From positions 1 through 47,227 of the IMG/VR virus record IMGVR_UViG_3300046463_000159: DNA of 47,227 bases, one strand, 5' to 3'. The notes beneath the pieces were generated by a model that made no database searches, was not told the origin of the DNA, and saw only the letters and a list, made by a program, of their open reading frames with translations. Shown here piece by piece: positions 9,021 to 47,227 of this stretch. Positions within the stretch are counted from its first letter, which is position 1, and each line of letters opens with the position of its first letter. Source of the stretch: a virus. The position numbers and the translations under genes are program-made.

Positions 9021-9035
9021 TGGCAGTACTCCTAA

Positions 9036-10688: not shown

Positions 10689-10702
10689 GTTTAGCTGTAC
10701 TC

Positions 10703-12561: not shown

Positions 12562-12788
12562 TTCGGGTACCTCATATAGAGCGGCGTTCCGTTGATTGCG
12601 CCCGCCTCGCGGTACTCGTATTGCTCGGTATGTCGTGCTGCAACCTCCGCCGCTGCGTGGCGCGCGTCGCGGTGTCCGAACAGGTACGCCATACGCATAG
12701 CGGGGTCTCGGTAGCTTTCCGGTATCTCGTGCGAAATATTCAAAATCTGCGATTCCAGACTCGGGGTTACTTGCTCGCTAGCTGGCAT
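12558..12788 (-). CDS. Hypothetical protein (76 aa)
   Basis: The 76-residue protein (MPASEQVTPSLESQILN...) contains HRDARHAAAEVAARHTEQYEYREAG. It overlaps the primase end upstream by 22 bases and the phosphoesterase start by 4, with GGAGG shortly before ATG 12788. Coupling and codon use support a real gene. No family is recognised. Confidence 0.65.
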   Translation of the reverse strand: MPASEQVTPSLESQILNISHEIPESYRDPAMRMAYLFGHRDARHAAAEVAARHTEQYEYREAGAINGTPLYMRYPK

Positions 12789-13576
12789 TGGATAGCCTCC
12801 CGGCTCATTAATTTAGGGTCGCGTGGGAACACCACGTTACGTACGTTCGCCCCGTATGCGCGGAGCGTTCTAATAATCTTTGCCGCGTTGTCCTGCCCCG
12901 CCTTATCGGGGTCCAGTGCCACGAGCACGGGCTTACCCGTCTTGATAATCTCGGCGGCGGTCCAATCGTTTAACTTCGTCCCGAGCAAGGACCACGCGGC
13001 GTAACCTGCGCGGGATACCCTGTAGGCCGAGAGCAAATCCTCGGTTAGTACTAACGCGGGGCCGTCCCCGTACTTAGCGATTAATCGCCGCTTATCTACG
13101 GACGGGGATAGATACTTGCAGGGGTTGGACTTGTCTAAGGTGCGCGCCTGCCAGAACACAGGCTCGTTTGATTCGTTGAACACGGGCAGGACCACACGTT
13201 GCAAACGCGGGGACCACACGAACCGCAACGCCTCTATCTCCACGTTGGAGAGGCCCGCAACGTACAGCCATACTCGCGCCTCAAGCGGCCACTCGCGCGG
13301 GTCCGCTATGCCCTCTGGCGGCGTTACCGATGCGCGGGCGTAACTCTCTACCTCCTGCGCTCTGCGTAGCCGTGCGAGCTTCTCTGTGAGGCTCTCCGCG
13401 GGTCTCGGCGTCCAACCTTTCTCACCGCACCTAAAACAACTCCAACCCCAACCGTCTCGTTTATGGGAGACCATGCGGCAGGACCCGCCGCCGCATGAGT
13501 GGGTATATTTCTTATGGGTTCCCTCGGGTAGGGACTGTGCGAACGTTAGCCAGTCATCGCGCGTCCCGTCCATCAT
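12767..13576 (-). CDS. DNA primase (zinc ribbon plus TOPRIM)
   Basis: The 269-residue protein has an N-terminal zinc ribbon (Cys28, Cys33, Cys47, Cys50: HSCGGGSC...CFRCGEKG) and a TOPRIM core (ALVLTEDLLSAY near residue 172, LVALDPDKAG near 220). It corresponds to the primase half of T7 gp4 without the helicase. I placed the start at ATG 13576 (MMDGTRDD), 7 bases after GGGGAG; a TTG six bases upstream is also possible. Its first 23 bases overlap the end of an HNH gene, as if the endonuclease had been inserted directly upstream. Confidence 0.85.
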   Translation of the reverse strand: MMDGTRDDWLTFAQSLPEGTHKKYTHSCGGGSCRMVSHKRDGWGWSCFRCGEKGWTPRPAESLTEKLARLRRAQEVESYARASVTPPEGIADPREWPLEARVWLYVAGLSNVEIEALRFVWSPRLQRVVLPVFNESNEPVFWQARTLDKSNPCKYLSPSVDKRRLIAKYGDGPALVLTEDLLSAYRVSRAGYAAWSLLGTKLNDWTAAEIIKTGKPVLVALDPDKAGQDNAAKIIRTLRAYGANVRNVVFPRDPKLMSREAIQCQLASK

Positions 13577-14057
13577 TTGCAAACTCCCCGTGTAGTTGCT
13601 TGGCCGCTACCGCGTACGCCTCGTGCGCTTGCTCCGGCGTGGCAAAGTAGCCGAGGAAATAGCGCCTTGACCGGGCGTAGATGTGCGCCGACCATTTGCG
13701 TTTATCCTTGGCGTAGGACACGCCCTTGTACCCGGAGGTATTACGGGAGGAGCGGCGAACGTTGGCCGTGTTTTGCGGGCGGGTTGCGGGCCGCAGATTG
13801 AGCAACCGATTGTTCGCCGGGTTGCCGTCCCTGTGGTCTAGCTCGCCGTCGGGGAATTTCCCGTACACGTATAACCACGCTAGGCGGTGTCCGTAGTGGT
13901 TAGTGCCGTCAATCGTTATCTGCACGTAGCCCAACGAGTTAAGGCAACCCGCCGCACTACCCACGGGCCTGTGCGGACTCCGCCGCACACGCCAAAGGAA
14001 TACGCCCGACTCAGGGCAGTACTCCAACAGTTCCTTAAGTCTGTCCTGAGTCAGCAC
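13554..14057 (-). CDS. HNH homing endonuclease with AP2-like DNA-binding domain
   Basis: The 167-residue protein has HRLAWLYVYGKFPDGELDHRDGN (HNH), NLRPATRPQN, then an AP2-like domain (SGYKGVSYAKDKRKWSAHIYA...LGYFATPEQAHEAYAVAA). It starts with GTG at 14057 after AAAGGAGG. The first ten residues closely match the plus-strand HNH gene at 22750 (MLTxxRLxELLEY), so the two are paralogues. It is probably a mobile homing endonuclease placed before the primase. Confidence 0.88.
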   Translation of the reverse strand: MLTQDRLKELLEYCPESGVFLWRVRRSPHRPVGSAAGCLNSLGYVQITIDGTNHYGHRLAWLYVYGKFPDGELDHRDGNPANNRLLNLRPATRPQNTANVRRSSRNTSGYKGVSYAKDKRKWSAHIYARSRRYFLGYFATPEQAHEAYAVAAKQLHGEFANDGRDAR

Positions 14058-14068
14058 GCGAGCCTCCT

Positions 14069-14260
14069 TTAGTCTTGCTCGATAAGCTCAAGCTCGTTCG
14101 TGTAGCAATAGCCCTCGGTACCGTCTGCGGCCCGTACGTCAACAAAGGCCCCTTGTTGCAGACCGTTTGCGATAACAACGACCTCCGCACCCTTGGCCCA
14201 TGCGGGGCCGTCCGTTTTCCACCCCTTGACGAGGCGGGCCTTATCACCTTTCTTAAACAT
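14069..14260 (-). CDS. Small SH3/KOW-like protein (63 aa)
   Basis: The 63-residue protein opens MFKKGDKARLVKGW and continues through AEVVVIANG to TNELELIEQD, the pattern of a small beta-barrel with SH3/KOW character. Similar modules appear in the products at 15240 and 15844. It lies in the unknown early cluster; no function is assigned. Confidence 0.65.
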   Translation of the reverse strand: MFKKGDKARLVKGWKTDGPAWAKGAEVVVIANGLQQGAFVDVRAADGTEGYCYTNELELIEQD

Positions 14261-14262
14261 GC

Positions 14263-14523
14263 TCAGACCTCCAGGCTAACGCCGTGCTTTGCTGCCTCGG
14301 CTGTCGCGTTGCGGGCAACTTCGTCCGCCTTGATTGCTGCGTCCGTGGCGCGTTTCTCCATGCGGGCGATAGCGTTATGCGCGGCTTGCGCCTCCGCGTC
14401 CGCCTTATTGACGAGCGCGGTAAGTGCGTTGATATGCAACGCCAAGAGATACGCCCGGACTTGTGCGCCGAATTGTGCGAGGCCGTTAATGAGGGCGAGT
14501 GCTGCGCGGGTAATCTTTGCCAT
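14263..14523 (-). CDS. Ala-rich helical hypothetical protein (86 aa)
   Basis: An 86-residue, Ala-rich and helical protein (ALALINGLAQFGAQVRAYLLA, then NKADAEAQAAHNAIARMEKRATDAAIKADE), likely forming a coiled coil. The start, ATG 14523, lies after CCTAGGATCTAC, a degenerate form of the leader seen before many genes here. No family is recognised. Confidence 0.65.
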   Translation of the reverse strand: MAKITRAALALINGLAQFGAQVRAYLLALHINALTALVNKADAEAQAAHNAIARMEKRATDAAIKADEVARNATAEAAKHGVSLEV

Positions 14524-14555
14524 GAGTAGATCCTAGGTAATTGGGTTGTGTTCGC

Positions 14556-14972
14556 TTAAACCAGACCGGCCAGCGGGTCCGCCGCTGCGCCCTGCGGTGC
14601 TACCTCTACGTGCTCCTCGCTCTGCCCGAGCGTGCCCGATTCCCACGGTGCGTTAGCCTCCGCCTCCTGTACTTCCTCACCTACCGCGAGAATGTCCGAA
14701 GGCTTGATAGAGACAATCTCCTCGTCCGCGCCCTCGCCCTTAATCACGCGGATAACCTTTCCTTTCTCCGTGTCGATAATTGAGCGGACCTCGCCCGAGT
14801 ACTCCCCGCGTGTCTCCTTGCGGCCAAACACGAACCGGATAACCGAACCCGGAGCGATACTGTCTAGTGCGTTCTGGGCGGCCTGCGAGCGCTTGAGGTT
14901 GGCGAGCTTTTCCGTATCTGCGTTGATACGGGTTTCGAGTGCTGCGATTTGTTCGGCAATGGTCTTACTCAT
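14556..14972 (-). CDS. Coiled-coil protein with SSB-like C-terminal tail (138 aa)
   Basis: Residues 1-40 (TIAEQIAALETRINADTEKLANLKRSQ) form a coiled coil. The middle (GSVIRFVFGRKETRGEYSGEVRSI...) looks like a small beta domain. The acidic tail ends AAADPLAGLV, close to the SSB tail GEDPLAALG. Similar small proteins occur in Xp10-like and T7-like early regions, but I cannot name the family. The start, ATG 14972, follows CTTAGGAGTACC. A role near the replication machinery is inferred from the shared tail. Confidence 0.65.
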   Translation of the reverse strand: MSKTIAEQIAALETRINADTEKLANLKRSQAAQNALDSIAPGSVIRFVFGRKETRGEYSGEVRSIIDTEKGKVIRVIKGEGADEEIVSIKPSDILAVGEEVQEAEANAPWESGTLGQSEEHVEVAPQGAAADPLAGLV

Positions 14973-15066
14973 GTTCGGAGGTACTCCTAAGGATTTTCGT
15001 AAATTGGATAGAGAGCAAAACAGGAACTACGAGGAACAGGAACGCGCTACATAGAGCTACGATCAT
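14965..15066 (-). CDS. Tiny membrane peptide (33 aa)
   Basis: A 33-codon frame starts with ATG in an ATGA overlap with the preceding gene and ends 8 bases inside the next one. Residues 2-19 (IVALCSAFLFLVVPVLLS) form one hydrophobic span. The couplings on both sides support translation. It could be a small inner-membrane effector; nothing more can be said. Confidence 0.45.
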   Translation of the reverse strand: MIVALCSAFLFLVVPVLLSIQFTKILRSTSEHE

Positions 15067-15239
15067 TGATGCACACAGACGTACTTAACGCCTTGCATAG
15101 TTCCGGTACCGAGCTTGGCCGCTTCCGCCCCGGCCATAACGCAGGCTTGCTGTGTGGCGAAACCCGGGATATTCGTTGTGCCCACATCGTTACCCTTGGC
15201 CCATACGCCCGCATGGAACATCAGAATGAGAATCCACAT
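15063..15239 (-). CDS. Small exported protein (58 aa)
   Basis: A 58-codon frame begins MWILILMFHAGVWAKG, a short signal-peptide-like or membrane N-terminus, followed by a soluble part with Cys32 and Cys55 (QQACVMAGAEAAKL...YVCVHQ). That pattern suggests a periplasmic disulphide-bonded peptide. It overlaps the next gene through ATGA. No family is recognised. Confidence 0.5.
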   Translation of the reverse strand: MWILILMFHAGVWAKGNDVGTTNIPGFATQQACVMAGAEAAKLGTGTMQGVKYVCVHQ

Positions 15240-15827
15240 TTACACGGCCTCCACGGTGCGCGTAACGGTAGTTTCCTCGCGGACCTTGAGGAGTTGCGAG
15301 TCCGATACTCGGGAGAGCTTGTAGGACACACTCGGGTATCCGTTCGTGCTGATGTGCTCGCGGGCCTCTTGCTCTGTGGCGAAATAATGCGTAACTCCGT
15401 AGCCGCCGTTGGGATACACGCGGGTAACGATGAACTCTTGTTCCGGCTCGGTAACAAGCTCGTAGTCCGCCGACCAGCGGTTATGGTCCGGGTGCCGTAC
15501 CGCGAACTCCTCCAGGACAAGATAGCGGTCCTCAATCCCGTACACCCGCTTTACGGTGTAAATTTTGCCAACCTGCGGCCCGTCCGTCCAAACGGAGTCC
15601 TTTACGTTGCGTACCTTATCGCCCGCCTTGAACTTACGCGCGACCTCCGGGACCGCCTCAAAGCGGCTCGAAAGGAACCAACCTCCGCTATTGGCCCTGT
15701 TGCGCGCCTCAACGAGAAACACGGAACTACCCTGCACGCTCTCCACTGTGTACACGCGGCCCTCTACCAACGAGCGGTTAGCCGTCACACACTTAACTTT
15801 CTGACCCGCCGTAAATTTGGTGCTCAT
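15240..15827 (-). CDS. Protein with two SH3/KOW-like modules (195 aa)
   Basis: The start is placed at ATG 15827 (MSTKFTAGQKVKCVTAN). Two related modules are visible: TAGQKVKCVTANRSL near residues 6-20 and KAGDKVRNVKDSVWTDG near 65-82, the latter ending with YELV. The C-terminal part (FIVTRVYPNGG...YFATEQEAREHI) is shared with the product at 15844. The protein may be a nucleic-acid or host-factor binding early protein, but that is inference from fold type only. Confidence 0.65.
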   Translation of the reverse strand: MSTKFTAGQKVKCVTANRSLVEGRVYTVESVQGSSVFLVEARNRANSGGWFLSSRFEAVPEVARKFKAGDKVRNVKDSVWTDGPQVGKIYTVKRVYGIEDRYLVLEEFAVRHPDHNRWSADYELVTEPEQEFIVTRVYPNGGYGVTHYFATEQEAREHISTNGYPSVSYKLSRVSDSQLLKVREETTVTRTVEAV

Positions 15828-15843
15828 GTTCGTATTCTCGGAG

Positions 15844-16242
15844 TTAGATGGATTGAAGTTCGGTCGTACGGTTGACGCGGCGACGCGCAACCACTTGAGT
15901 AATCGTGTATTCCTTGCCGTTATCCCCGTACTCCGCGAGGAACTCCTCGGCGGATTCTTGCGTGGCGTACTCGGTCGTCATGCCTGCAATGAGGTAGACG
16001 GTTGCGGTGGGTTCCGGGGCGGCCCGCACTAGTTCATAGCGGTGGGCGTACCACTCCGTAATAACGCGCCCCGAATCCATACGCACCGTGAGAATGCCAC
16101 CCACCTTAGCCTCAACAGTGCCCGTGTTCCCAACCTCTGAGAGGTCATTGGGGAACGGCTTAAGGTCCTCCAGCGTGTAGCCTGTGCCCTGCTTCTCGCC
16201 ACGGAACACAACGCGCGAACCAACCTTGATTTTCGTATTCAT
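15844..16242 (-). CDS. SH3/KOW-like early protein (132 aa)
   Basis: The 132-residue protein starts at ATG 16242 after ACTTAGGAGTACAC. The N-terminal part (VGSRVVFRGEKQG...HRYELV) matches the modules of the neighbouring 195-residue protein, as does the C-terminal part (TEYATQESAEEFLAEYG). The two are diverged paralogues. No family name can be given. Confidence 0.65.
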   Translation of the reverse strand: MNTKIKVGSRVVFRGEKQGTGYTLEDLKPFPNDLSEVGNTGTVEAKVGGILTVRMDSGRVITEWYAHRYELVRAAPEPTATVYLIAGMTTEYATQESAEEFLAEYGDNGKEYTITQVVARRRVNRTTELQSI

Positions 16243-16277
16243 CTGTATGTGTACTCCTAAGTATTGTTGGGAGGGAT

Positions 16278-16487
16278 TTAGCGGGTACGGGCGCGCGGGA
16301 ACATCGCGGGAACAAGCGGGCCACCGCGCAGGCGGCCATGTGCGCCAATGTCGTAGAAGTCCTTGCACTCGTTATCGTGTGCTTTCTTGGCGCGGAGGGC
16401 GTCCGGGTGGTTGCTAAGGAATTGGCCTACCGTGTGCTTGCGGTCAAGGTCAAAGGCGCGGACGTTCGTTTGTGCGTTCGTGTTCAT
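16278..16487 (-). CDS. Basic hypothetical protein (69 aa)
   Basis: The 69-residue protein begins MNTNAQTNVRAFDLDRK and has HTVGQFLSNHPDALRAKKAHDNE. It is basic at its C-terminus (FPRARTR). Its start lacks a strong Shine-Dalgarno site. It sits in line with its neighbours; function unknown. Confidence 0.5.
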   Translation of the reverse strand: MNTNAQTNVRAFDLDRKHTVGQFLSNHPDALRAKKAHDNECKDFYDIGAHGRLRGGPLVPAMFPRARTR

Positions 16488-16496
16488 GGTTTGGTC

Positions 16497-16820
16497 TCAG
16501 TGGTTAAAGGTGGTTGCTGCGAGCTTGGACTTAATCCAGTCTATGCGGGGTTGGTGGAGGTGTTGCGTGTCTTTTACGGCGCACTCGTCGTACGCCGCGT
16601 CTCCGAACGGATACACACGGTCTAGGCCGTCCGCTCGGAACATGCGTTTAAGCTCGCGGCAAACGAAGTCGTACGCTACGTCCGGTTCCGGTTGCTCCTC
16701 GCAGAACACGTCAACGCCGTAGCACAGGCCCGCACCACGCGCAAACGGCCTACCTTGAGGTGCGCCCGCGTCTACCCACTCGATATACGCGGTCAAGAAC
16801 TTACGCATAAGCTCGCTCAT
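16497..16820 (-). CDS. Hypothetical early protein (107 aa)
   Basis: The 107-residue protein (MSELMRKFLTAYIEWVDAGAPQG...) has GLCYGVDVF and CRELKRMFRADGLDRVYPFGD. The segment LxxYxxWVxxGAP is found in small proteins of several phages of unknown role. The start, ATG 16820, follows TCAGGAGTACC. It is probably cytosolic. Confidence 0.65.
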   Translation of the reverse strand: MSELMRKFLTAYIEWVDAGAPQGRPFARGAGLCYGVDVFCEEQPEPDVAYDFVCRELKRMFRADGLDRVYPFGDAAYDECAVKDTQHLHQPRIDWIKSKLAATTFNH

Positions 16821-16840
16821 GATTGGTACTCCTGACTCTG

Positions 16841-17071
16841 TCAGTGGAGGATAGTTACTTGGTTGCTGCCCGGGAGGAACCGCTCAATCTCGGCCCCCGT
16901 TACCGCGTTACCGTTAATGCGCTGCACCTTGGATACGATCGTTTGGCCGCTGTCCGTGAGTGCTGCGTGGTGCATGTGTACTTCAAAGCCGTTCTTGTTA
17001 AGAGCTACGCGTACCGCGTTCCAGTGCGTACGGGAGGCGTCCGGGGTTTTGATTACGAGCGTTTGGGGCAT
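16841..17071 (-). CDS. Hypothetical protein (76 aa)
   Basis: The start is placed at ATG 17071 (MPQTLVIKTPDASRTHWN). The protein has alternating strands and one helix (HWNAVRVALNKNGF, HHAALTDSGQTIV). A TTG start 36 bases upstream is possible but would overlap the previous gene. No clear Shine-Dalgarno site is visible before the ATG. Not recognised. Confidence 0.5.
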   Translation of the reverse strand: MPQTLVIKTPDASRTHWNAVRVALNKNGFEVHMHHAALTDSGQTIVSKVQRINGNAVTGAEIERFLPGSNQVTILH

Positions 17072-17081
17072 GTTGCAGGCG

Positions 17082-17246
17082 TTACCAATGTTTAAGGGAG
17101 GTTCCAACAGTTGCGCCTACGAGTGCGCCCGTGTTTCCAGTGTGTTTAATCGGAGGCGGTGCGCCCCGGTACACCGTGATTCGATGCCCGTTAATTACCT
17201 TGACCGTCCCGCGAGACTGCGGGAGCTTGTTGTGTTTCGTTTGCAT
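17082..17246 (-). CDS. Small basic hypothetical protein (54 aa)
   Basis: A 54-codon frame begins MQTKHNKLPQSRGTVKV and ends LKHW. The start follows ATTAGGGAGTAC, the recurrent leader. It is basic and small-residue rich, with no membrane segment. Not recognised. Confidence 0.55.
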   Translation of the reverse strand: MQTKHNKLPQSRGTVKVINGHRITVYRGAPPPIKHTGNTGALVGATVGTSLKHW

Positions 17247-17540
17247 CTAGTAGTACTCCCTAATGAGTTGCTCTCGCGTTTGCGGTTGCGTTTGTGGTGC
17301 GGTGGAAATGACGTACCCGCCTGCGTTGACCTTGAGCGGGGTATTGCTTGTGAGGCCCCGGCGCGAGGCGTCGCGGGAAATGTCGCGGATTGCGTTACCG
17401 TACGAGCGTTTGCGCTCCTCTCTCTCGGCCAGTTGGCGGGTCTGCGCCTCACGGGCTACGCGGCCCGCTGCGGCTACACTGGATTGCTTGGCTTTGGAGA
17501 AATACTGCGCGCGGCGTTCTGCTCGGGTTTGTGCGTGCAT
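17247..17540 (-). CDS. First gene of the leftward early block; basic helical protein (97 aa)
   Basis: The 97-residue protein is rich in Arg, Ala and Gln (MHAQTRAERRAQYFSKAKQ, then LAEREERKRSYGNAI). Its charge suggests nucleic-acid binding or host-protein contact, but I do not recognise it. The start, ATG 17540, follows CAGGAGTTC. It is the first coding frame downstream of the two leftward promoters at 17.9-18.0 kb, about 350 bases away, so it is likely expressed first. Confidence 0.65.
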   Translation of the reverse strand: MHAQTRAERRAQYFSKAKQSSVAAAGRVAREAQTRQLAEREERKRSYGNAIRDISRDASRRGLTSNTPLKVNAGGYVISTAPQTQPQTREQLIREYY

Positions 17541-17888
17541 ATAGGTAGAACTCCTGAATAGGTTAAGTAAAGCGACTCACGGAGAATCGCCTTGCGTAAC
17601 CAAGGGCTACGGCCTCCGGTTGGAGGCGGTAAGGGTTCTGTTGTTTTGATTGGTACGTTCGGGAGGGAGAGCGAAGGATTCTAGACCTAGCACCACTTAC
17701 CTACTTGCGATACTTACCAATACACTAGTCTTTTCAGGCCGAGGACGCCCTACTTGTCTAGTGTTGCTACCTTGCGCCCCGCAGGCTCACATTCCCCTTG
17801 GGTTTCTCAGTAGCGTTTGTATTGCGAACCAGGTTTAGCGCCCCCGGCTGTAGGCCCGTACTTCGTTGTTGCTTACTGCTTGAACCGA

Positions 17889-17917
17889 ACTTTACAGAGG
17901 TACACCGCTCGTGTCAA
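17889..17917 (-). promoter_or_regulatory. Sigma70-type promoter for the early block (proximal copy)
   Basis: On the minus strand TTGACA (17917-17912), 17-base spacer, TAAAGT (17894-17889). The spacer contains GGTGTACC at the same place as in the promoter at 45048-45076. The copy 98 bp upstream has a nearly identical context (ACAAAGTxTTGACA ... TAAAGTTC). Confidence 0.65.
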
Positions 17918-17986
17918 CACTTTGTTTTCTACCGCACATTCAACTCCGTGTTTCTCTGTTCTGCCCGTTTCGCTGCATTGGTGTGA

Positions 17987-18015
17987 ACTTTAAGCGAGGT
18001 GCACTTGGCTGTCAA
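17987..18015 (-). promoter_or_regulatory. Sigma70-type promoter for the early block (distal copy)
   Basis: On the minus strand TTGACA (18015-18010), 17-base spacer, TAAAGT (17992-17987). The spacer has AGTGCACC, a variant of the element in the proximal copy. The shared flanks show that the pair arose by duplication. Confidence 0.6.
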
Positions 18016-18564
18016 TACTTTGTGCAACGAAAATTTTTAGAGCGCTGCCTCTAGAACCTTCTCCTGCTTAAGCCTCGTTGCAGGTCGTTACAACTTGCAA
18101 CAGGTCCAACGAGTACGAAGTCTACATCTTTCGTTTGGTCGTACAAGTCCCTTGCAGTCTAAGTACCGACGGACACGAAATGTACCGATTAGCCGCTCTC
18201 GCCCGCCCCGCAAGCGTTTGCGAGCTTTCGGGTACCCTAAGGAGTACACCTATTCCGCGAGTACCTTGTAGAAAGGATTTTCTGTGTTGTCCGCCTGGAC
18301 AGGAATAGGACAATCTCACAAGGGTTTTCCCGAGAACGTTTTAGCACTCGCAACCACCGTAGTAAGCATTTTCTTACTATTTGCGCCCCGCTTTTAGGCA
18401 AAAGTGACACGCCGTTACCGATATGAGCAAAACCACACTAGTTTAGTAAGGTAATTATTGCGTCACGTAATTTTGGCCGCCTATCGTCATAAGTTACCGA
18501 TAGTGGCGCACGGGCACCCTCTGTTAGAGTTACACCCGGACCAAGCATTGACATAGCACTAAGT

Positions 18565-18587
18565 AGACAGGTACCCTCCGCCTGTCT
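18565..18587. repeat. 7-bp inverted repeat just upstream of the recombinase-like gene
   Basis: AGACAGG and CCTGTCT flank a 9-base loop (TACCCTCCG), about 24 bases before ATG 18611. A TTGACA lies at 18548-18553 but has no fitting -10. The repeat could be an operator, an att-site arm or an RNA hairpin; the sequence does not decide. Confidence 0.4.
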
Positions 18588-18610
18588 GCAAATTCCTTTA
18601 ACTTACTGAC

Positions 18611-19501
18611 ATGCCAAACATTATTACTAAGTACGCCAGGGACGGACGGGTTAGCTACCAAGCGGTAGTCCGAGTGGACAAATCCCGCCCCGTCAAAAAG
18701 ACCTTTCCTACGATGGAGGAGGCCGAGGCGTGGCGTGTCGCAAAAGACGCGGAGTTGCGGGCACTCAAAGAGACCCCGGCCTACGAGTACACATTAGAGG
18801 AGGTCGTGGACGACTACACAGCGTTGTACCCGGCCACGGTTGCCCCTGAGCTTAAGGAGCGTTTGGCCGCTGCGCTCCCGTTGCGCGTACAAGAGGTTGG
18901 AGAGGACCACATTAAGAGCCTGTCCCAAGAGGACCTAGATACCCTCCAGACAGTAATAGAGCATGGCCGCCGCTACATGGGCGTACGCGTCCCCGAGAAC
19001 GTTGTAGTTGCTCTGTGCGCCAAGCGAAAAGAACTCCCGTATAGGCCGATGACTGCATTCGAGGAGGAGAAACTTTTATCAGAATCAAAGGGCCTCGCTA
19101 ATGGATGTTTGCAAGACGTACTAATCCTCGCTTTAGATACGGCATTGGTCCAACAGGAAATTATTGATTTAACCTCGGATTTAGTAGACCTAAATGCAGG
19201 CGTTATCCGTATGTCTGCCGAGCGTATTATCCCGTTGACCACGAGAGCTAGAACCGTATTATCTCAACGCATTGCAGATAATCCCTCTGCTATTTTCGAT
19301 GGCCTCCCAAAGAACACCCTCCAAACCGCATTCATTCGATTAAAGAACAAGCTCGGCTTTAATGGGCCGGATTTTAACGACATTCGAAAGATTGCAATAA
19401 CCCGCCTTGCCGAGAAAATGTCCATACACGAACTCAAGGACGTTCTCGGGTACCAACGATATGCCCCGCTTGAGTGGCTCATTGCGCTACAGCGCGGGTA
19501 A
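18611..19501 (+). CDS. Degenerate tyrosine recombinase (integrase-like), probably catalytically inactive
   Basis: The 296-residue protein has a phage-integrase N-terminal arm-binding domain (ITKYARDGRVSYQAVVRV...KKTFPTMEEAEAWR, residues 5-42) and a C-terminal catalytic-domain fold (LALDTALVQQEIIDLTSDLVDL, residues 173-194; FNDIRKIAITRLAE, 255-268; LKDVLGYQR, 275-283). Aligned with active integrases, the first Arg is Val180, the HxLRH box reads N256-D-I-R259-K260, the LGH His is Tyr281 and the nucleophile position near 290 is not Tyr. Only Arg259 survives. The first half is GC-rich like the rest; from about 19050 codons are visibly AT-richer, suggesting a mosaic. No clear Shine-Dalgarno site precedes ATG 18611. 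It may now act only as a DNA-binding protein. Confidence 0.75.
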   Translation: MPNIITKYARDGRVSYQAVVRVDKSRPVKKTFPTMEEAEAWRVAKDAELRALKETPAYEYTLEEVVDDYTALYPATVAPELKERLAAALPLRVQEVGEDHIKSLSQEDLDTLQTVIEHGRRYMGVRVPENVVVALCAKRKELPYRPMTAFEEEKLLSESKGLANGCLQDVLILALDTALVQQEIIDLTSDLVDLNAGVIRMSAERIIPLTTRARTVLSQRIADNPSAIFDGLPKNTLQTAFIRLKNKLGFNGPDFNDIRKIAITRLAEKMSIHELKDVLGYQRYAPLEWLIALQRG

Positions 19502-19723: not shown

Positions 19724-20017
19724 TTGGTTACTACGGTTAAGACTCACCGCTTACGCGGTAATGCTGGAGTACAGCAACGTAAGAGAATTAGGATTAGGGA
19801 TAAGTACACTTGTCAGCATTGCAATATAGCTGTCCGTGTAGGAGAAGTAGACCACATTATCCCATTAGAGTTAGGTGGTACGAATAATGATAATAATTTA
19901 CACCTGCTCTGTTCCCCTTGTCATATAAAGAAAACAGCTAAGGATAGAGGATATAAAGTAACCACAGGTTCTAACCTAGATGGTACTCCTACTAATCCTG
20001 AACACCATTGGAACTAG
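19724..20017 (+). CDS. HNH endonuclease next to the terminase genes
   Basis: The 97-residue protein has RIRDKYTCQHCNIAV, EVDHIIPLELGGTNNDNN and HLLCSPCHIKK, a compact HNH nuclease with two zinc CxxC pairs. It starts at TTG 19724, 7 bases after TAGGAG. Small HNH proteins beside TerS/TerL (HK97 gp74 type) are known to help cos cleavage by HK97-type terminases, so this may be a packaging factor rather than a homing enzyme. Its codons are clearly AT-richer than those of the replication and structural genes, as is the surrounding 0.9 kb. Confidence 0.85.
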   Translation: MVTTVKTHRLRGNAGVQQRKRIRIRDKYTCQHCNIAVRVGEVDHIIPLELGGTNNDNNLHLLCSPCHIKKTAKDRGYKVTTGSNLDGTPTNPEHHWN

Positions 20018-20160: not shown

Positions 20161-20316
20161 CTAAGATTAAGCCTATCTAGGCTCGGCCTGATTACCATAT
20201 CAATATCGGCCTGTCTATCATTATCTGCGGTCTAGGTATCAATTCGGCCCATATACCATAGGTTCTACTGCGGTGTCAATATATTTCTGTGATATTCATT
20301 GAAATAATCCGAATCT

Positions 20317-20383
20317 GTTGTGATATACCAACGATTTCCGCGATTCTGTGGTGAAAATCCAACATGTGTTGTGATATACCAAC
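20317..20383 (+). repeat. Three 16-bp repeats (GTTGTGATATACCAAC)
   Basis: Identical copies at 20317-20332 and 20368-20383 and a variant (GTGGTGAAAATCCAAC) at 20348-20363. Each is an imperfect palindrome with GTTG/CAAC ends. A TTGAAA at 20299 with a weak -10 inside the first copy could form a promoter controlled by them. Confidence 0.65.
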
Positions 20384-20676: not shown

Positions 20677-21159
20677 ATGCCCCGTAAGCGCTCAGATAGT
20701 GCTACGCAGGCGGTAGCGGCTACGCAAGCGGCTATTGCTGGCACGATTCAACCCCCGGCCCACGTCTACCTCAGAGAAAAGGATTGGCCGTATTGGGAGG
20801 CCATTGTCCAGGCCCGGGCGGCGGACACGTGGAATGATGCGGACTTGGCCCTAGCGGCTAACTTGGCCCGTTGCCAATCGGATATTGACCGTCTCCAGCG
20901 CGAGCTAGACGATACAGGGGACATTCTCAATAACGCCAAGGGTACGCCCGTGGTTAATCCCCGCCATGCCCTCCTAGAGACGCTCTCCCGCCGCGTAGTG
21001 GCCCTCTCCAGGGTTGTTCACGTCCACGCAGAGGCCACTAAGGGCCGTTCCCGGGACGCGGGCAATAAGCAGGCCCTAGAGAAAGGCCAGCGGGCCGCCG
21101 TAGGGGCTATCCGCGAGTCTGAGGAGCATTCCCTTATCCCGGGCCTCACTCTCCAATGA
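20677..21159 (+). CDS. terS: Terminase small subunit
   Basis: The 160-residue protein has an N-terminal helical DNA-binding part (MPRKRSDSATQAVAATQAA), then PPAHVYLREKDWPYWEAIVQAR and a long helix DLALAANLARCQSDIDRLQRELDD, typical of phage TerS proteins that recognise the packaging site and form a ring. The C-terminal part is basic. The start, ATG 20677, follows AATATTAGGAGTAC. It overlaps TerL by ATGA. Confidence 0.82.
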   Translation: MPRKRSDSATQAVAATQAAIAGTIQPPAHVYLREKDWPYWEAIVQARAADTWNDADLALAANLARCQSDIDRLQRELDDTGDILNNAKGTPVVNPRHALLETLSRRVVALSRVVHVHAEATKGRSRDAGNKQALEKGQRAAVGAIRESEEHSLIPGLTLQ

Positions 21160-22742
21160 GGGTACGGGAGCCTACTAGCCCCGGCCCACGAAAGCAGACA
21201 ATCCCCCGGACACGCGGAGAGCGCGCAATTGAGTTCTGCGAGCGGTACCTCCGCGTCCCCGAGGGGGCCTTGGTCGGACAACCTATCCGCTTTGAGGAGT
21301 TCCAGCGGGAATTTATCCTCTCGATTTACGACAATCCGCACGGCACACGGCGGGCCTACCTCTCGATTGCCCGTAAGAACGGCAAGAGCGCGGTTATCGC
21401 GTGTATTTTGCTCGTCCATCTAATCGGGCCTGAGGCCAAGCTCAACTCACAGATTGTCTCCGGCGCTATGTCCCGGGACCAAGCGGCCCTAGTGTTTAAC
21501 TTGGCCGCAAAGATGGTGCAGCTTTCCCCGGACATTTCCCCGCTCATTAAGATTAACCCCTCGGGCAAGAAACTTACGGGCCTCCCGCTCAACGTTGAGT
21601 ACAAGGCGTTGGCCGCAGAGGGCAAGACTACGCACGGCCTCTCCCCCGTTCTCGCTATCCTGGACGAGATAGGCCAGATTCGCGGCCCGCAAGATGACTT
21701 TATCGACGCGGTAACCACCGCGCAGGGCGCGCACGCCGAGCCGCTCCTTATCGCTATCTCCACGCAGGCCGCCACGGACGCGGATTTGCTCTCGATATGG
21801 CTAGACGATGCGCTCAAGGGTGAGGACCCGCACACGGTAGTACGGCTCTACGCGGCCCCGCCTGACGCGGACGTAATGGACCGCGAGGGGTGGAAAGCAG
21901 CTAACCCGGCCCTCGGAGTGTTCCGTAGCTTGCAGGACGTGGAGGACCAAGCGTTACGCGCGCAGCGTATGCCCTCCTCAGAAAACACGTTCCGTAACCT
22001 GATTCTCAACCAACGCGTATCTACGGTCTCCCCGTTCGTGTCCCGCAACGTGTGGGAGTCTTGCCGGGGCGTTCCCGAGCTAATCCCCGGTTCGCAAGTA
22101 TTCGGCGGCCTGGACCTCTCGGCCCGTACCGACCTTACCGCGTTCGCTCTCATAGGTAAGCATGAGGGGCGGTGGAATTCCCGCGTATGGTTCTGGACGC
22201 CCGAGGAGGGCCTACGAGACCGCGCCAAGCGGGACCGCTCCCCGTATGACCTATGGGCCGAGCAAGGGCACCTACGCACTACCCCGGGCCGCACAGTGGA
22301 TTACGAGTACGTAGCCCGGGACATTCTGGAGATATGCGAGGAGTACGCCGTACACAGCATTGCGTACGACCGTTGGCGAATTGACCTCCTCAAAAAGGAG
22401 TTTAAGGACCTCAGCATAGACGCGGATACGTCTCACAAGGACGGAGGCCGCCTCCCTCTCGTGCCACACGGCCAGGGATACAAGGACATTTCCCCGGCCT
22501 TGGACCTTTTGGAGTCCGAATTGGTAAATGGGCGGGTTTCTCACGATGGTTCCCCGCCTTTGACCATGTGCGCGTCCAACGCGATTGTCCAGAAAGACCC
22601 GAGCGGCAACAGAAAACTAGACAAGGCTAAGGCCACGGGCCGCATAGACGGCCTCGTAGCTCTAACCCTCGCGTTTGGCGCAACGGTTTTGGCGGCGTCG
22701 GACGTAGAGCCTGAGAGGACCTTTCAGCTATTCGCTTTTTAG
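21156..22742 (+). CDS. terL: Terminase large subunit (HK97-type)
   Basis: The 528-residue packaging motor has its ATPase centre at SIARKNGKSA (Walker A, residues 70-79) and PVLAILDEIGQ (Walker B, 164-174). The nuclease domain starts with FGGLDLSARTDLTAF (about residue 316) and ends with GRIDGLVALTLAFG, which supplies the metal-binding Asp residues. The architecture is that of HK97-like cos phages, consistent with the HNH gene upstream. It pumps DNA into proheads and cuts at the packaging site. Confidence 0.93.
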   Translation: MRVREPTSPGPRKQTIPRTRGERAIEFCERYLRVPEGALVGQPIRFEEFQREFILSIYDNPHGTRRAYLSIARKNGKSAVIACILLVHLIGPEAKLNSQIVSGAMSRDQAALVFNLAAKMVQLSPDISPLIKINPSGKKLTGLPLNVEYKALAAEGKTTHGLSPVLAILDEIGQIRGPQDDFIDAVTTAQGAHAEPLLIAISTQAATDADLLSIWLDDALKGEDPHTVVRLYAAPPDADVMDREGWKAANPALGVFRSLQDVEDQALRAQRMPSSENTFRNLILNQRVSTVSPFVSRNVWESCRGVPELIPGSQVFGGLDLSARTDLTAFALIGKHEGRWNSRVWFWTPEEGLRDRAKRDRSPYDLWAEQGHLRTTPGRTVDYEYVARDILEICEEYAVHSIAYDRWRIDLLKKEFKDLSIDADTSHKDGGRLPLVPHGQGYKDISPALDLLESELVNGRVSHDGSPPLTMCASNAIVQKDPSGNRKLDKAKATGRIDGLVALTLAFGATVLAASDVEPERTFQLFAF

Positions 22743-22749
22743 GAGACAC

Positions 22750-23241
22750 ATGCTTACCTACTCGCGCCTATGTGAGCTTCTAGAGTACCGCCCGGATACG
22801 GGCGAGTTCGTTTGGCGTACTACCACGAGCAACCGGGCGATAGCTGGAGAGGTTGCGGGACACGTAACGAACTGCGGCTACGTCCGTATCGCGTTGGACG
22901 GAAAGCGATATCTCCGGAGTCACCTCGTATGGTTGCTCCACACCCGCGCCCTACCTACCCGCCGTATCGACCATAAGAACCGAGACCGGACGGACGACCG
23001 GCTTTCCAACTTGCGCCTAGTTAGCGCAACGCAGAACCTTTGCAACGCCTCGAAACGCTCGGACAACACCTCGGGCGTTACGGGTGTCGGTTGGTCGAAA
23101 CAGAAGCAGCGCTGGCACGCGCGCCTGAAGGTAGACGGGCGGGTTGTGTACAGCAAGTTCTTTTCATCACTGGCGGACGCTGAGCGGGCTATCTCCAGCG
23201 CTCGCGTAGAAATCCACGGCGATTACGCCTGTAACGGCTAG
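22750..23241 (+). CDS. HNH homing endonuclease with AP2-like domain
   Basis: The 163-residue protein has SHLVWLLHTRALPTRRIDHKNR (HNH) and NLRLVSATQN, then SGVTGVGWSKQKQRWHARLKVDG with FFSSLADAERAISSA (AP2-like). Its N-terminus (MLTYSRLCELLEY) matches the minus-strand HNH gene before primase, so the two are paralogues. It sits between TerL and the protease, preceded by TAGGAG, and is likely a mobile insertion in the head operon. Confidence 0.88.
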   Translation: MLTYSRLCELLEYRPDTGEFVWRTTTSNRAIAGEVAGHVTNCGYVRIALDGKRYLRSHLVWLLHTRALPTRRIDHKNRDRTDDRLSNLRLVSATQNLCNASKRSDNTSGVTGVGWSKQKQRWHARLKVDGRVVYSKFFSSLADAERAISSARVEIHGDYACNG

Positions 23242-41483: not shown

Positions 41484-41492
41484 TTATCCACA
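41484..41492 (+). promoter_or_regulatory. DnaA box (TTATCCACA)
   Basis: A perfect match to the high-affinity DnaA consensus. It lies 3 bases after the last rightward gene, next to an AT-rich stretch and the iterons, as in plasmid origins that use host DnaA. Confidence 0.75.
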
Positions 41493-41668
41493 GGTGAGAG
41501 AACGCGGGAGCGCCTCTAGTTAAGGTTTTAAATCTCTCTCGTTAGGGTCTCTACCAGAGACCTTTTCGCGGGTAATCGGTATCTACGGGAGACCTATAGC
41601 ACGGTCGTTCGGTCTCTGGTAGATACGTATCCCACAGAGACCTATCCGATTAGTCTCAGTCAGAGACC
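41484..41668. other. Candidate plasmid-type replication origin with five iterons
   Basis: After the DnaA box come an AT-rich stretch (TTAAGGTTTTAAAT, 41520-41533) and copies of a 17-bp palindromic unit, GGTCTCTACCAGAGACC: perfect at 41546-41562; variants at 41578-41594, 41611-41627, 41626-41642 and 41652-41668. The last copy overlaps the end of the Rep-like gene. DnaA box, AT-rich opening region and iterons beside a Rep-like gene are the classic elements of an iteron plasmid origin. Confidence 0.7.
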
Positions 41669-42246
41669 TTTCCTTGTAGCCTTTTGAGGAGTATGTCCCG
41701 GACCTCGGGGGCGAGCTTGTCCATGTTCTCCATGAGGTTTTGGATATTTATCTGCATGGCGTGGTCATTAAACTGATTGAAATTAACCGTAAGGTTCTCG
41801 ATAGTCACTATCTTGGCCCCGGCAAAGTCGCCAGTCATCATTACATGCTTAAGCTCGGCTACCGCGCCTTTAACTCCGTCCGGGACGTAATCCCATGTAG
41901 CGTCCGCAATCGGGCGGCCCTTGTCGTCCGATATGCCTATTTTCTCCCGCAGCGTGTACTTATTGTTGCGGCCCATTTTCTCCCGCGTGATGTAGCCGCA
42001 CCGCTCTAGCTCGTCTAGCGCGCGGTGTACCTGCGCCTTGGAGATACCGGACTTTTCAATGATCGTAGGGATACCCGGGAACGCAATCCCGCTCTTAAAA
42101 TTAGTGTGGGCTTTGATTACGGCGTAGACGGTAAAGGCGTACGGCCCCATGCGGGCCACGTCCCCACTCTCTATCATGCTGCGGAACACATGAAACCATG
42201 TGGTCTCGGCCTGGAATAGGTCGTACTGCGTGGCCTCCTCGTCCAT
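41656..42246 (-). CDS. Winged-helix protein, candidate plasmid replication initiator
   Basis: The start is placed at ATG 42246, overlapping the ParG-like stop by one base (TGATG). The 196-residue protein has TWFHVFRSMIESGDVARMGPYAFTVYAVIKAHTNFKSG, then a winged helix-turn-helix (GIPTIIEKSGISKAQVHRALDELERCGYITREKMGR), an N-terminal-domain pattern seen in plasmid replication proteins. The iteron array begins inside its 3' end. By context it is the initiator; it could also be a plasmid transcription regulator. No replicase or primase motif is seen, so host polymerases or the phage set would do the synthesis. Confidence 0.6.
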   Translation of the reverse strand: MDEEATQYDLFQAETTWFHVFRSMIESGDVARMGPYAFTVYAVIKAHTNFKSGIAFPGIPTIIEKSGISKAQVHRALDELERCGYITREKMGRNNKYTLREKIGISDDKGRPIADATWDYVPDGVKGAVAELKHVMMTGDFAGAKIVTIENLTVNFNQFNDHAMQINIQNLMENMDKLAPEVRDILLKRLQGKVSD

Positions 42247-42653
42247 CACCCGCCCCGGTTGTGCTTGGCGGCCCGCTCTCGCTTGAGGGCGGCCAGTTGC
42301 TTGGCGATTGCCTCCGCTACTACGTCCTTTTGTTTGAGGCGGGTAAGGAGGCAAAACTCGCGTAGCTCCTCGGAGAGGTCCGTAGGTATGCGCACGTTGA
42401 GCGGGATTCCCGGGTCCGGGCGCTCCTCTTTCGTGGCGGCCCACGCTGGATAGGCGGGCGTCTGCGGCGGTTGGTCTGTGGGCGCGGGGGTTGGAGCCTC
42501 CCGAACCTCAGAAGCGGCCCCTGTGGCCTGTGCGGCGGTCTGCGGCACGTCCGGGTCCGGTACGGTGTTTATTACCGGGGCGGCCTTTTGTATGTCCTCT
42601 AGGATGGTGTTTCGATTAGGGCGGCCCGCGCTCATTGTTGGTTGCTTCGTCAT
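42246..42653 (-). CDS. ParG-like centromere-binding protein (ribbon-helix-helix)
   Basis: The 135-residue protein has a Pro/Ala-rich flexible N-terminal half with GRPNRNTILEDIQKAA, then a ribbon-helix-helix domain in the C-terminal 50 residues (IPLNVRIPTDLSEELREFCLLTRLKQKDVVAEAIAKQLA). Such proteins bind the centromere and autoregulate with a small ParA. The genes overlap by ATGA, typical of type Ib parFG operons. It is longer than ParG itself owing to the linker. Confidence 0.7.
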   Translation of the reverse strand: MTKQPTMSAGRPNRNTILEDIQKAAPVINTVPDPDVPQTAAQATGAASEVREAPTPAPTDQPPQTPAYPAWAATKEERPDPGIPLNVRIPTDLSEELREFCLLTRLKQKDVVAEAIAKQLAALKRERAAKHNRGG

Positions 42654-43324
42654 TTCCCGTAGACCTCCAGATAAACAGACTTCATTTCGTGGGCGGCCTT
42701 GGCGTCGAAGTCCTCCCCGATCATTTCGCAGACGCCCCGGCCCTGCGCCATTGCTAGCTTGAATGTTTCCCGTGTGCCTACGAGCGTGCGGCAGCGTGGG
42801 AGGAGCGCGGCGTAGGCCTTCATTTCCTCAATCATTACCTTGGTAAGGCGTTTGCGCGGGTCCGCCTCGTTGAGGACCACCTGCGCGTTAATGCTGCGCC
42901 CTAGCGTTTCCGTGAGGGTCTCCAACACGCCGTACAACCCCGGCACAGTCTTTAAGTCTGCGGGCGAGGGCTTGAGCGGGACTACGATTACGTCCCCCGC
43001 TGCGAGTGCCGCGCGAGCTAGGCGCGTGTCTTTCCCGCCCACATCAATAAACACGTCTGTGTATTCGCCTACGGCGGCGGCTAGCAAGTCGCGAAACTCG
43101 TCTACAAGGTCCGCCTCCAGCAAATGCTTAAGGGTGCGCCCCTCCACACGCTCCACGTCTGCCAACACGCTACGGTCCTCTACCCACGCTTGGCTAGTCT
43201 CCTGGCCGTCTAGGTCTAGGATCACACATTTATAGTTAAGGGCGGCCCGTATGGCGGCTAGGTTCTGACAAAACGTACTTTTCCCCGTACCGCCTTTCTG
43301 TGCGACAACGCAAGTAACACTCAT
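42650..43324 (-). CDS. parA: ParA-family partition ATPase (ParF type)
   Basis: The 224-residue protein has the deviant Walker A box KGGTGKST (residues 10-17), VILDLDGQETSQAW (switch I), DVFIDVGGKDTRLARAAL (Walker B) and VIVVPLKPSPAD. The short length without an N-terminal HTH is that of type Ib (ParF) partition proteins, which move plasmids on the nucleoid. A sigma70 promoter and tandem repeats lie directly upstream. It starts the par-rep operon. Confidence 0.92.
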   Translation of the reverse strand: MSVTCVVAQKGGTGKSTFCQNLAAIRAALNYKCVILDLDGQETSQAWVEDRSVLADVERVEGRTLKHLLEADLVDEFRDLLAAAVGEYTDVFIDVGGKDTRLARAALAAGDVIVVPLKPSPADLKTVPGLYGVLETLTETLGRSINAQVVLNEADPRKRLTKVMIEEMKAYAALLPRCRTLVGTRETFKLAMAQGRGVCEMIGEDFDAKAAHEMKSVYLEVYGK

Positions 43325-43357
43325 GTTTTAATCCTTATCGTGTTGGATTGTTTCGGG

Positions 43358-43386
43358 ATAGTAGGGTAAAGGTCCGTACGTGTAAA
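43358..43386 (-). promoter_or_regulatory. Sigma70-type promoter of the par-rep operon
   Basis: On the minus strand TTTACA (43386-43381), 17-base spacer, TACTAT (43363-43358), 34 bases before the parA start codon. The tandem repeats at 43419-43442 lie just upstream of the -35. Confidence 0.65.
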
Positions 43387-43418
43387 GGAGTTTAGCGAGG
43401 GGCCGCCGCATTACCTAC

Positions 43419-43442
43419 AAACTAGGAAACAAACTAGGAAAC
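43419..43442. repeat. Tandem 12-bp repeats, candidate centromere (parS/parH)
   Basis: AAACTAGGAAAC occurs twice head to tail (43419-43430, 43431-43442), followed by TAGCTAGG. Tandem short repeats upstream of the par promoter are where ParG-type proteins bind. Confidence 0.55.
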
Positions 43443-43470
43443 TAGCTAGGTTGGTAGTTTGGCGTTACGC

Positions 43471-43863
43471 CTATCGTCTGTGCGTGCTCACGTATGCGTC
43501 TACGCGGTCATCGTAGTACTGCTCGGCGTCCTGTTGCATGGCCTCGGAGCACGCCCGCGAGGCGTCTAAGCGGCAACGGTCAGCGGTGTCTAGAAACTGT
43601 TGCTTGGAGTCTTGCGCCTTGGTAACGGCGTAGTAAGCCCCGCGCCCATTGGACACGAAGCGCTCCCGGCTACGGGCGGCGTCATTGATGCAGGGTTGGA
43701 ATAGGACCGAGTTTTGTAGCGGCCCGCAAAGGCGTACTGAGGTCTGATAATGGGCGTCCGCGCGTTGCTGTAGGTTAGCCTCCGCCTCGGGCGGGAGCGT
43801 GCTTTGCGCGGAGCAAGAAAGAGAAAGGCCCGCGAGAACGCAGGCCGAGAGGGGTTTAAACAT
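43471..43863 (-). CDS. Exported Cys-containing protein (130 aa)
   Basis: The start is placed at ATG 43863 after CAGGAGGCC (MFKPLSACVLAGLSLSCSAQS). The N-terminus is a signal peptide, probably cleaved after CSA; the Cys there fits a lipobox poorly. The mature protein has Cys at VRLCGPL, QPCIND, DRCRL and SRACSEA, likely two disulphides, and a helical C-terminus. It sits between a lipoprotein gene and the par operon. Not recognised; a periplasmic role such as immunity or lysogenic conversion is a guess. Confidence 0.65.
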   Translation of the reverse strand: MFKPLSACVLAGLSLSCSAQSTLPPEAEANLQQRADAHYQTSVRLCGPLQNSVLFQPCINDAARSRERFVSNGRGAYYAVTKAQDSKQQFLDTADRCRLDASRACSEAMQQDAEQYYDDRVDAYVSTHRR

Positions 43864-43900
43864 TTGGCCTCCTGTGGTGGAGGCCCATGCTAGCACGCGG

Positions 43901-44707
43901 TCAGTTACCCGCTTTCATGGCCGCCGCTACCGGCGTAGCAATGGCGTTAATCCATTGTTCGTTAAGCCACGCGTCCGGGGTGCGGCAGTCCGCGCCGAGG
44001 TGTCCCGCCGTGTACGTGTTCGTAACCGTGTTGGTCGTCGGGTCGGACACGAACGTACTATTGAGGACGCCCACCGGGAACCCGCCGCCTTGCGTGGAGG
44101 CGTTCCCGATTGCTTGGATAACGCCGTCCGCCGCGCTGTGGCCCGTAGCTGCGTCACAGGTCGGGACAGGCATGATTACAAACACGAGCTTACCGGCTAC
44201 GTGCATCCGTTGGAGATACACGTAAATGTCTTGCCGGAACTGCGCGAGGGCGGCTTGTTGGTTCGGGTCGTCCATCGGCGTAACCATATCGTCAATGACG
44301 AAGTTAGCCACTACGAACCCGTTGGGGTCCGTCTTAAATTGATCGTCCGTGGGCGGGAGGCCGTTATTCTCGCCCATGATAAGGGCGTGCAGCGTCGTCC
44401 CGTCCATTACCTGCGGGGTTACCGTGGCGGTTACGCCCTGGGCCGCGAGGGCGTCTTGCAACGTTGCAACCGTTTGCGCGGCAGCGTCAGAAGCGGATAC
44501 CGGGGCCGTTGCTGCGGAGGCGTCCGAGGCTACGTCCGTGGCGGCCTTGGCCGTGGATTTTACCGTAGCGCCCGCGAGCGGGTTACCGTAGAACGAGAGC
44601 GTAGGATTCTTGATGCTCGTTGCCGGGGCCGGGGAGGTATCCGACCCACCCCCGCCACAGGCGGAGAGGAGGGCGGCAGTGAGGATGCAGAGAGTACGTT
44701 TAATCAT
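43901..44707 (-). CDS. Large lipoprotein (268 aa), possible host-modifying gene
   Basis: The protein begins MIKRTLCILTAALLSACGGG, with lipobox LSAC and Cys17, followed by a Gly/Ser linker, a type common in Burkholderiales. The Ala/Ser/Thr-rich segment 30-90 is followed by a compact domain with VVANFVIDDMVTP, QDIYVYLQRMHVAGKLVFVIMPVP and GHLGADCRTPDAWLNEQW. The order recalls SGNH hydrolases, but the GDS block is not clear (SFYGNPLAG), so I do not assign it. No ribosome site stronger than GAGAAC is visible. It may be expressed in the plasmid state as a surface protein. Confidence 0.65.
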   Translation of the reverse strand: MIKRTLCILTAALLSACGGGGSDTSPAPATSIKNPTLSFYGNPLAGATVKSTAKAATDVASDASAATAPVSASDAAAQTVATLQDALAAQGVTATVTPQVMDGTTLHALIMGENNGLPPTDDQFKTDPNGFVVANFVIDDMVTPMDDPNQQAALAQFRQDIYVYLQRMHVAGKLVFVIMPVPTCDAATGHSAADGVIQAIGNASTQGGGFPVGVLNSTFVSDPTTNTVTNTYTAGHLGADCRTPDAWLNEQWINAIATPVAAAMKAGN

Positions 44708-46847: not shown

Positions 46848-47227
46848 TTAAAACCAAGCATAGCCGCTCTCGCGGACTGCGTTAAGGTCCAACGTACCAT
46901 ACTCGGGCAACGGCGGGAGCTTCTCGCGTTGCTCGGGCGTGAGTGCTGCGGTTACTTGCTCCGTCCAGGTCCCGAGGAGGTCCGCCTCCATGAGTTCCAC
47001 GAACTGCTCGCGGGTGCTCTCGAAAACGTCCTGACACTGCGCGAACGGTGCGCCGAATGAGTCATGCACCATTGCGAAGTTACGAACGCCCCGGCGGTAC
47101 AGGTCATTGACAACCCGGACCATGTGGCTAGCGTCTACCCCGTGTACAAAGTTCGGGGAGACCCCGGCCCGTTGGCCCTTTTTGCTCAATGTGTCCCTAT
47201 TAATATAGAAACGCCGCTTGCGCTCCC
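46848..47227 (-). CDS. Single-subunit T7-type RNA polymerase, C-terminal 125 codons (continuation of the gene at 1-1900)
   Basis: Reading the minus strand from position 1 into 47227 keeps the same frame: codon 634 is made of base 1 plus 47227-47226. The C-terminal part contains SPNFVHGVDASH and the catalytic FAMVHDSFG block, equivalent to the T7 residues around H811-D812, and ends with aromatic residues (YAWF, stop at 46850-46848), much as T7 RNAP ends in FAFA. The residues spanning the join fit the equivalent T7 segment, which is about 11 residues longer, so I see no sign of sequence missing at the join. A loss of a whole number of codons cannot be excluded. The gene ends convergently with the lysozyme gene, with about 40 bases between them. 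Confidence 0.93.
   Translation of the reverse strand, partial: ERKRRFYINRDTLSKKGQRAGVSPNFVHGVDASHMVRVVNDLYRRGVRNFAMVHDSFGAPFAQCQDVFESTREQFVELMEADLLGTWTEQVTAALTPEQREKLPPLPEYGTLDLNAVRESGYAWF

Follow-up and report, generated by a model that had tools for sequence, protein, structure and literature searches.

The window analysed here, i.e. the whole stretch of viral DNA of 47,227 bases, carries on its minus strand (43324–41484) three genes with overlapping ends, which encode a ParF-type ATPase, a ribbon-helix-helix (RHH) protein and a Rep-like protein and are followed by origin elements. The first gene (42650–43324, minus strand) encodes ParA, a ParF-type (type Ib) partition ATPase of 224 aa, which matches AAA_31/CbiA in Pfam and the PHROG ParA family (6.5e-30) and contains a deviant Walker A motif (KGGTGKS, residues 10–16). 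Being short and devoid of an N-terminal DNA-binding domain or HTH, the protein meets the type Ib criterion. Its score against the NCBIfam model ParA_partition (1.1e-31) fell under the model cut-off, and the best PDB match of its family profile was ParF of TP228 (4dzz), over the full length and at 3.4e-33.

Directly downstream, the conserved second gene of the ParA-RHH-Rep trio (42246–42653, minus strand) encodes a 135-aa RHH protein, whose putative ParG-like role rests on an AlphaFold2 model, on fold matches and on its position in the trio. The model comprises a confident C-terminal helix-helix (residues 91–132) and a low-confidence N-terminal tail, which we take as disordered; together with the motif, this satisfies the type Ib criterion of an RHH partner with an unstructured N-terminal tail immediately following parA. 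Fold matches to CopG, Arc and ParD were weak, with none at E<0.001, no family match was obtained among Pfam and NCBIfam models, and tblastn against plasmids returned nothing. As ParF is the best solved match of ParA, and the RHH partner is floppy-tailed, 'type Ib' holds for the pair at the family level, with the centromere being no more than a candidate.

The third gene (41656–42246, minus strand) encodes the predicted replication initiator Rep, a winged-helix (HTH_36, 3.3e-11) protein of 196 aa matching PHROG replication-initiation families (1e-10), the labels of which include 'replication initiation O-like'. In the structure model, the winged helix is confident at residues ~20–105 and the C-terminal half is of low confidence. 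A fold search against solved structures gave nothing at E<0.001, and no NCBIfam replication model was matched; the winged helix also resembles the centromere-binding proteins TubR (8.9e-5) and AspA. Nor did the window Rep match Rep_3 (PF01051; Rep3_N/Rep3_C), which within the clade was found only in the sister genomes G005 and G006. The reading frames overlap at ATGA (parA and the RHH gene) and GTGATG (the RHH gene and rep). The identities of the genes are established by sequence; DNA binding by their products is inferred.

Upstream of parA lies a sigma-70-like promoter of the par-rep operon, recognised by its sequence (TTTACA-17-TACTAT; 43358–43386, minus strand) and identical in the related locus L004. 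It is preceded by CTAGTTT(G) tandem repeats (43418–43447, minus strand; repeat starts at 43445, 43437 and 43425), a block conserved 5′ of parA in L004, L005, L008 and L010. These repeats are a candidate centromere or operator, with binding by the RHH protein inferred.

The candidate origin is located 3′ of rep. Reading of the sequence identified five 17-bp imperfect palindromic iterons of the pattern GGTnTC-N5-GAnACC (41546–41668; starts at 41546, 41578, 41611, 41626 and 41652), and AGGTNTC half-sites occurred three times in 181 bp, as compared to 0.05 expected. Adjacent is an A+T-rich CCCTAACGAGAnAGAT..TTAAC stretch (41510–41553), a candidate unwinding element conserved across unrelated phages; at ~41514–41553 the lowest 40-mer (at 41514) has a GC content of 37.5% vs. 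58% for the genome. The sole perfect DnaA box of the genome, TTATCCACA, follows at 41484–41492 (plus strand). Of 17 viral loci, 16 had a perfect DnaA box in the 280-base segment immediately 3′ of rep, as compared to 1 of 1054 equally sized background windows; for CCCTAAC, the figures were 15 of 17 loci and 19 of 1054 windows. The 17 loci are partly related, and neither count is fully independent. Alignment of the loci showed conservation of the palindromic iterons, the CCCTAACnAGAnAGAT...TTAACnAT element and the DnaA box, with their order kept; in L013–L019, iterons of the same pattern had diverged in sequence. With a winged-helix Rep, iterons, an A+T-rich element and a DnaA box in one cluster, the layout of an iteron-type theta replicon is met, from which autonomous replication is inferred.

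The original prediction, made from the letters alone, had placed a ParF-type ATPase, an overlapping RHH protein and a winged-helix Rep-like protein within 2 kb, a promoter with tandem repeats upstream, and a DnaA box, an AT-rich stretch and iterons downstream; all of these held, the placement of the origin being corrected to 3′ of rep. It was to be regarded as refuted if the 41656–42246 product proved unrelated to proteins of replication or of plasmids, and such a relation was found. Of the partition proteins, for which a comparison with ParFG profiles had been proposed, ParA gave the full-length family match to ParF and the RHH partner gave none.

The phage genome around the operon

The virus record represents a complete circular map as assembled, its contig ends lacking an end repeat. 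A gene for a T7-type RNA polymerase (minus strand; PF00940, 1.6e-45 and 1.0e-20) has its start at 1900 and runs across the junction of the circle, with the N-terminal part at 1–1900 (PHROG RNA polymerase, 4.4e-115) and the C-terminal part at 46848–47227. The two halves join in frame to give 759 aa, and the sibling genome G001 spans this junction without a break; the record is therefore complete and circular. The polymerase thus proved to be what the original prediction had called it.

The minus arm further encodes a T7-lysozyme-like amidase, a two-gene DNA polymerase, a ligase, a DnaB-type helicase and a primase, and the plus arm a terminase, major head protein, portal, tape measure, lambda J-type tail tip and spanin. 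The large terminase (21156–22742, plus strand) is of the HK97/HK022 type (62–64% identity). With terminase, capsid, tail and lysis genes, the phage gene set is complete, and the combination of a T7-type RNA polymerase with lambda/HK97-type virion genes meets the criterion for an Xp10-type siphovirus. RNA polymerase genes were described as 'very rare' in siphoviruses in the report on Shewanella phage KASIA, which names Xp10, Xop411 and OP1 (PMC8541194). A megablast of the 22–47 kb half of the genome against phage records returned no match, and no tRNA genes were found in the window. The T7-type portal PF12236 had no match anywhere scanned, but this search lacked a positive control and is uninformative.

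The DNA polymerase is divided into separate exonuclease and polymerase genes (2777–4018 and 6615–9020), and HNH endonuclease genes or domains occur at 2777–4018, 5308–5760, 13554–14057, 19724–20017 and 22750–23241. A low-G+C stretch of repeated TGTTGTGATATACCAAC-type units (20313–20383) precedes the small terminase gene. As the sibling contigs G001 and G005 end nearby, at ~20.5–21.0 kb, these repeats may lie close to a cos site.

Relatives of the module and exchange of the replicon

Sibling genomes from several metagenomes encode ParA relatives conserved at 87–99%. In these siblings parA always adjoins the RHH gene, and the polymerase is present on the complete or near-complete G001, G005 and G007, which rules out a chimeric contig as the source of the association. 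Rep relatives (51–86%) were found in otherwise unrelated phages, most of which retain the ParA–small gene–Rep order. For instance, whole-genome translated comparison of G011 and G014 with the window revealed little in common apart from the rep interval and a scatter of other segments, including parts of polymerase and capsid. In more distant relatives on MAG contigs (L043, L045–L049), the origin motifs were mostly not recognisable, and several lacked ParA.

PF00940 was detected in the window-clade genomes G000, G001, G005 and G007, in G012–G014, G023, G025 and G027–G029, and in the N4-type G011, G015, pRBH2-3 and Ab2712; it was not found in G009, G010, G020, G026 or G031, three of which (G010, G020 and G031) have N4-type capsids. 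The par-rep module is thus common in polymerase-encoding phages but not confined to them. A plasmid state in a phage with a T7-type RNA polymerase had been put forward as new; this claim needs correction, as the combination of polymerase and plasmid maintenance is not unique to the window genome, and the replicon is exchangeable rather than specific to its phage type.

The exchange was clean between two sister genomes, G005 (locus L008) and G007 (locus L010). Their parA and RHH genes, together with the first 8 nt after the stop codon of the latter, are 96.6% identical; there follow unrelated blocks of 1180 and 738 bp, respectively, beyond which identity returns at 88.9%. The G005 block encodes a Rep_3 initiator (Rep3_N, 1.4e-32; Rep3_C, 4.7e-12) that shares 64% identity with the Rep from a Caballeronia plasmid of 20 kb, and also holds a tandem array of three 21-bp iterons as well as two DnaA boxes. 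The G007 block, in turn, encodes a diverged HTH_36 Rep, ~31% identical to that of the window, together with TCCTCAtgggTGAGGA palindromes and two DnaA boxes. The window and G001 carry a third replicon version in the same slot. Conservation of the module and its origin elements, as well as the exchange itself, are directly established by sequence. Because the neighbours stay while one plasmid replicon type replaces another, the interval reads as a plasmid replicon; we consider this clean exchange between preserved flanks to be the strongest single argument for that reading.

Plasmid relatives, integration and host

The trio also resides on plasmids. Polaromonas plasmid pA29BJ2 (104 kb) carries the ParA–small protein–HTH Rep trio, and neither another annotated rep nor a Rep_3 match was found on it (the PLSDB tables being incomplete), nor was a phage RNA polymerase. 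As in the window, rep is followed on its 3′ side by palindromic repeats and DnaA boxes; unlike the window, pA29BJ2 is an ordinary plasmid, its Rep is only 39% identical and its repeats are of the CCCTTATnnnTAAGGG type.

pRBH2-3, a complete plasmid of 75,126 bp from an A. baumannii isolate, carries the trio along with genes for an N4-type capsid and an RNA polymerase. Over 15 kb, its identity to the free phage vB_IME_Ab2712 is 99.3%. An isolate hence harbours, as a plasmid, a phage that combines a single-subunit RNA polymerase with a distantly related version of the trio. The resemblance to the window extends to the gene trio and to the polymerase; however, these elements differ from it in size (75 kb), in their N4-type capsid and replication genes and in the absence of a DnaA box 3′ of rep, and the Rep of pRBH2-3 is only 35% identical to that of the window. 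The plasmid-prophage state suggested by the original prediction is accordingly only partly borne out: it was seen for this distant relative, and for the window phage itself it is inferred. The further claim of a full low-copy plasmid maintenance set is supported by these comparisons, with low-copy replication likewise inferred. Elsewhere on pRBH2-3 (L065), which was typed only as a non-mobilizable plasmid, a 10.9-kb gene (7682–18622) has the size of the N4 virion polymerase.

The only kind of integrase-like gene in the clade is present at 18611–19501 (plus strand), where a weak PF00589 match (4.4e-8) marks a degenerate tyrosine recombinase; PF00589-like proteins are also encoded by G001, G005 and G007. 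Motif reading in a four-sequence alignment with siblings and the intact enzyme of G014 revealed that the proteins of the window, G005 and G007 lack the catalytic Arg-I and His-II (the HxxR histidine), and that the window protein in addition carries a change at the later histidine and an altered tyrosine region. As these catalytic residues are missing, integration by this protein is improbable. It is conserved in siblings and may be a DNA-binding relic or a regulator. No repressor or lysogeny switch was recognised among the proteins scanned, many small genes of the window being without an assigned function.

No host contig of the window clade was found: a Rep-family profile scan of genome contigs yielded seven MAG contigs, all from genomes without the polymerase. 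Among 399 genomes of the order of G016, we detected no close polymerase and two distant ones; the two contigs concerned were rejected as the window element, as they lacked Rep and RHH profile matches, one of them having a ParA. In a genome of this order, L071 (9047–16346) has genes for ParA, an RHH-like protein and a single-subunit RNA polymerase of 1022 aa, interspersed with insertion sequences and tandem 'MVAWLHGC' repeats, an arrangement that differs from the window module.

A probable plasmid-maintenance module and its rival explanations

Among known partition systems, ParF/ParG of TP228 is alike in its small ParA without an N-terminal DNA-binding domain, the adjacent flexible-tailed RHH partner and the repeats 5′ of the operon. 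In contrast to it, the RHH protein of the window is too diverged for Pfam and NCBIfam models, the operon runs on into rep, and the upstream repeat, with a putative centromere role, is CTAGTTT. Among phages, the Xp10 type (Xp10, Xop411, OP1) shares the siphovirus morphotype and a T7-type RNA polymerase within the replication module. These phages are regarded as lytic and, to our knowledge, carry no partition or replicon module. P1, N15 and the integrase-less cluster A mycobacteriophages are plasmid prophages with ParABS, using partition in place of integration, and depend on host RNA polymerase and classical repressors; the window differs from them in its phage RNA polymerase and exchangeable iteron replicon.

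Taken together, the 41.48–43.45 kb locus is most plausibly the plasmid-maintenance module of a phage-plasmid, and its bearer probably a lambda/HK97-type siphovirus with a T7-type RNA polymerase and an exchangeable replicon. Phage-plasmids as a kind are already known, and the window phage would likely represent a variant distinguished by this polymerase and a swappable replicon. In the quiet state, a host sigma-70 promoter would drive ParA, the RHH partner and Rep as a single overlapping operon. Rep would bind the palindromic iterons that follow its gene and, together with host DnaA bound to the neighbouring box, open the A+T-rich stretch, after which host enzymes would replicate the circular phage DNA and keep it at a low copy number. 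The RHH protein may bind the CTAGTTT repeats 5′ of parA, thereby repressing the operon, and the resulting partition complex would be distributed on the nucleoid by ParA. On entry into the lytic cycle, a switch would bring in the phage-encoded RNA polymerase, DnaB-type helicase, primase and DNA polymerase.

One could argue instead that Rep and its origin serve the lytic cycle, like lambda O/ori, that ParA and the RHH protein have lytic or regulatory roles, and that the phage is strictly lytic. The phage does have its own helicase, primase and polymerase, which need an initiator; no repressor was recognised, and a PHROG label for Rep reads 'replication initiation O-like'. A lytic initiator, however, is not expected to swap freely with the Rep_3 of small cryptic plasmids, and the partition pair remains beside each replicon version; moreover, the trio occurs on a 104-kb plasmid without a phage polymerase, and an N4-like relative exists as a plasmid. 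We therefore judge a purely lytic origin unlikely.

Less probable still is a reading of the HTH_36 protein as a third partition or regulatory protein akin to TubR or AspA, with prophage replication starting from elsewhere. It draws on the winged-helix resemblance and on the missing match to NCBIfam replication models, but it is opposed by the DnaA box and conserved A+T-rich element that immediately follow the gene at almost every viral locus, by the exchange for Rep_3 of the HTH_36 gene slot rather than the par genes, and by the HTH_36 gene being the only rep candidate on pA29BJ2. Least probable of the three is an integrating temperate phage that uses the 18611–19501 recombinase and acquired the par-rep operon recently or is losing it. 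PF00589-like proteins in the window, G001, G005 and G007 speak for this possibility; against it stand the absence of Arg-I and His-II in the window, G005 and G007 and an intact operon with ParA 87–99% conserved across siblings.

Beyond the preferred reading of a phage-plasmid maintenance module, a bolder one may be considered, towards which we lean only slightly: the HTH_36 Rep with its downstream DnaA-box/iteron origin, beside ParF/RHH, would form an undescribed phage-plasmid replicon family common to several unrelated lineages that each encode a single-subunit RNA polymerase, namely the lambda/HK97-type siphoviruses, the N4-like phages and a third one. A considerable share of the RNA-polymerase phages now supposed to be lytic could then persist as plasmids and swap replicons, presumably escaping incompatibility. 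The open-access literature searched contained nothing on point for T7-like-polymerase phage-plasmids, N4-like phage-plasmids or the named elements, and wider absence is not established.

A phage that encodes its own RNA polymerase is usually taken to be obligately lytic, both in textbooks and in the selection of phages for use. That several such lineages carry a conserved and exchangeable plasmid replicon implies that some are probably temperate as plasmids, and these phages make the silencing of a T7-type polymerase in a lysogen a testable question. The occurrence of three replicon types in one slot is, furthermore, a clean natural case of phage genomes swapping replicons and probably, with them, incompatibility.

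Two putative lipoprotein or secreted-protein genes (43471–43896 and 43901–44707) adjoin the par operon, the latter (PHROG 8011) lying beside parA in every sibling examined. Their products are candidates for surface proteins expressed by the prophage.
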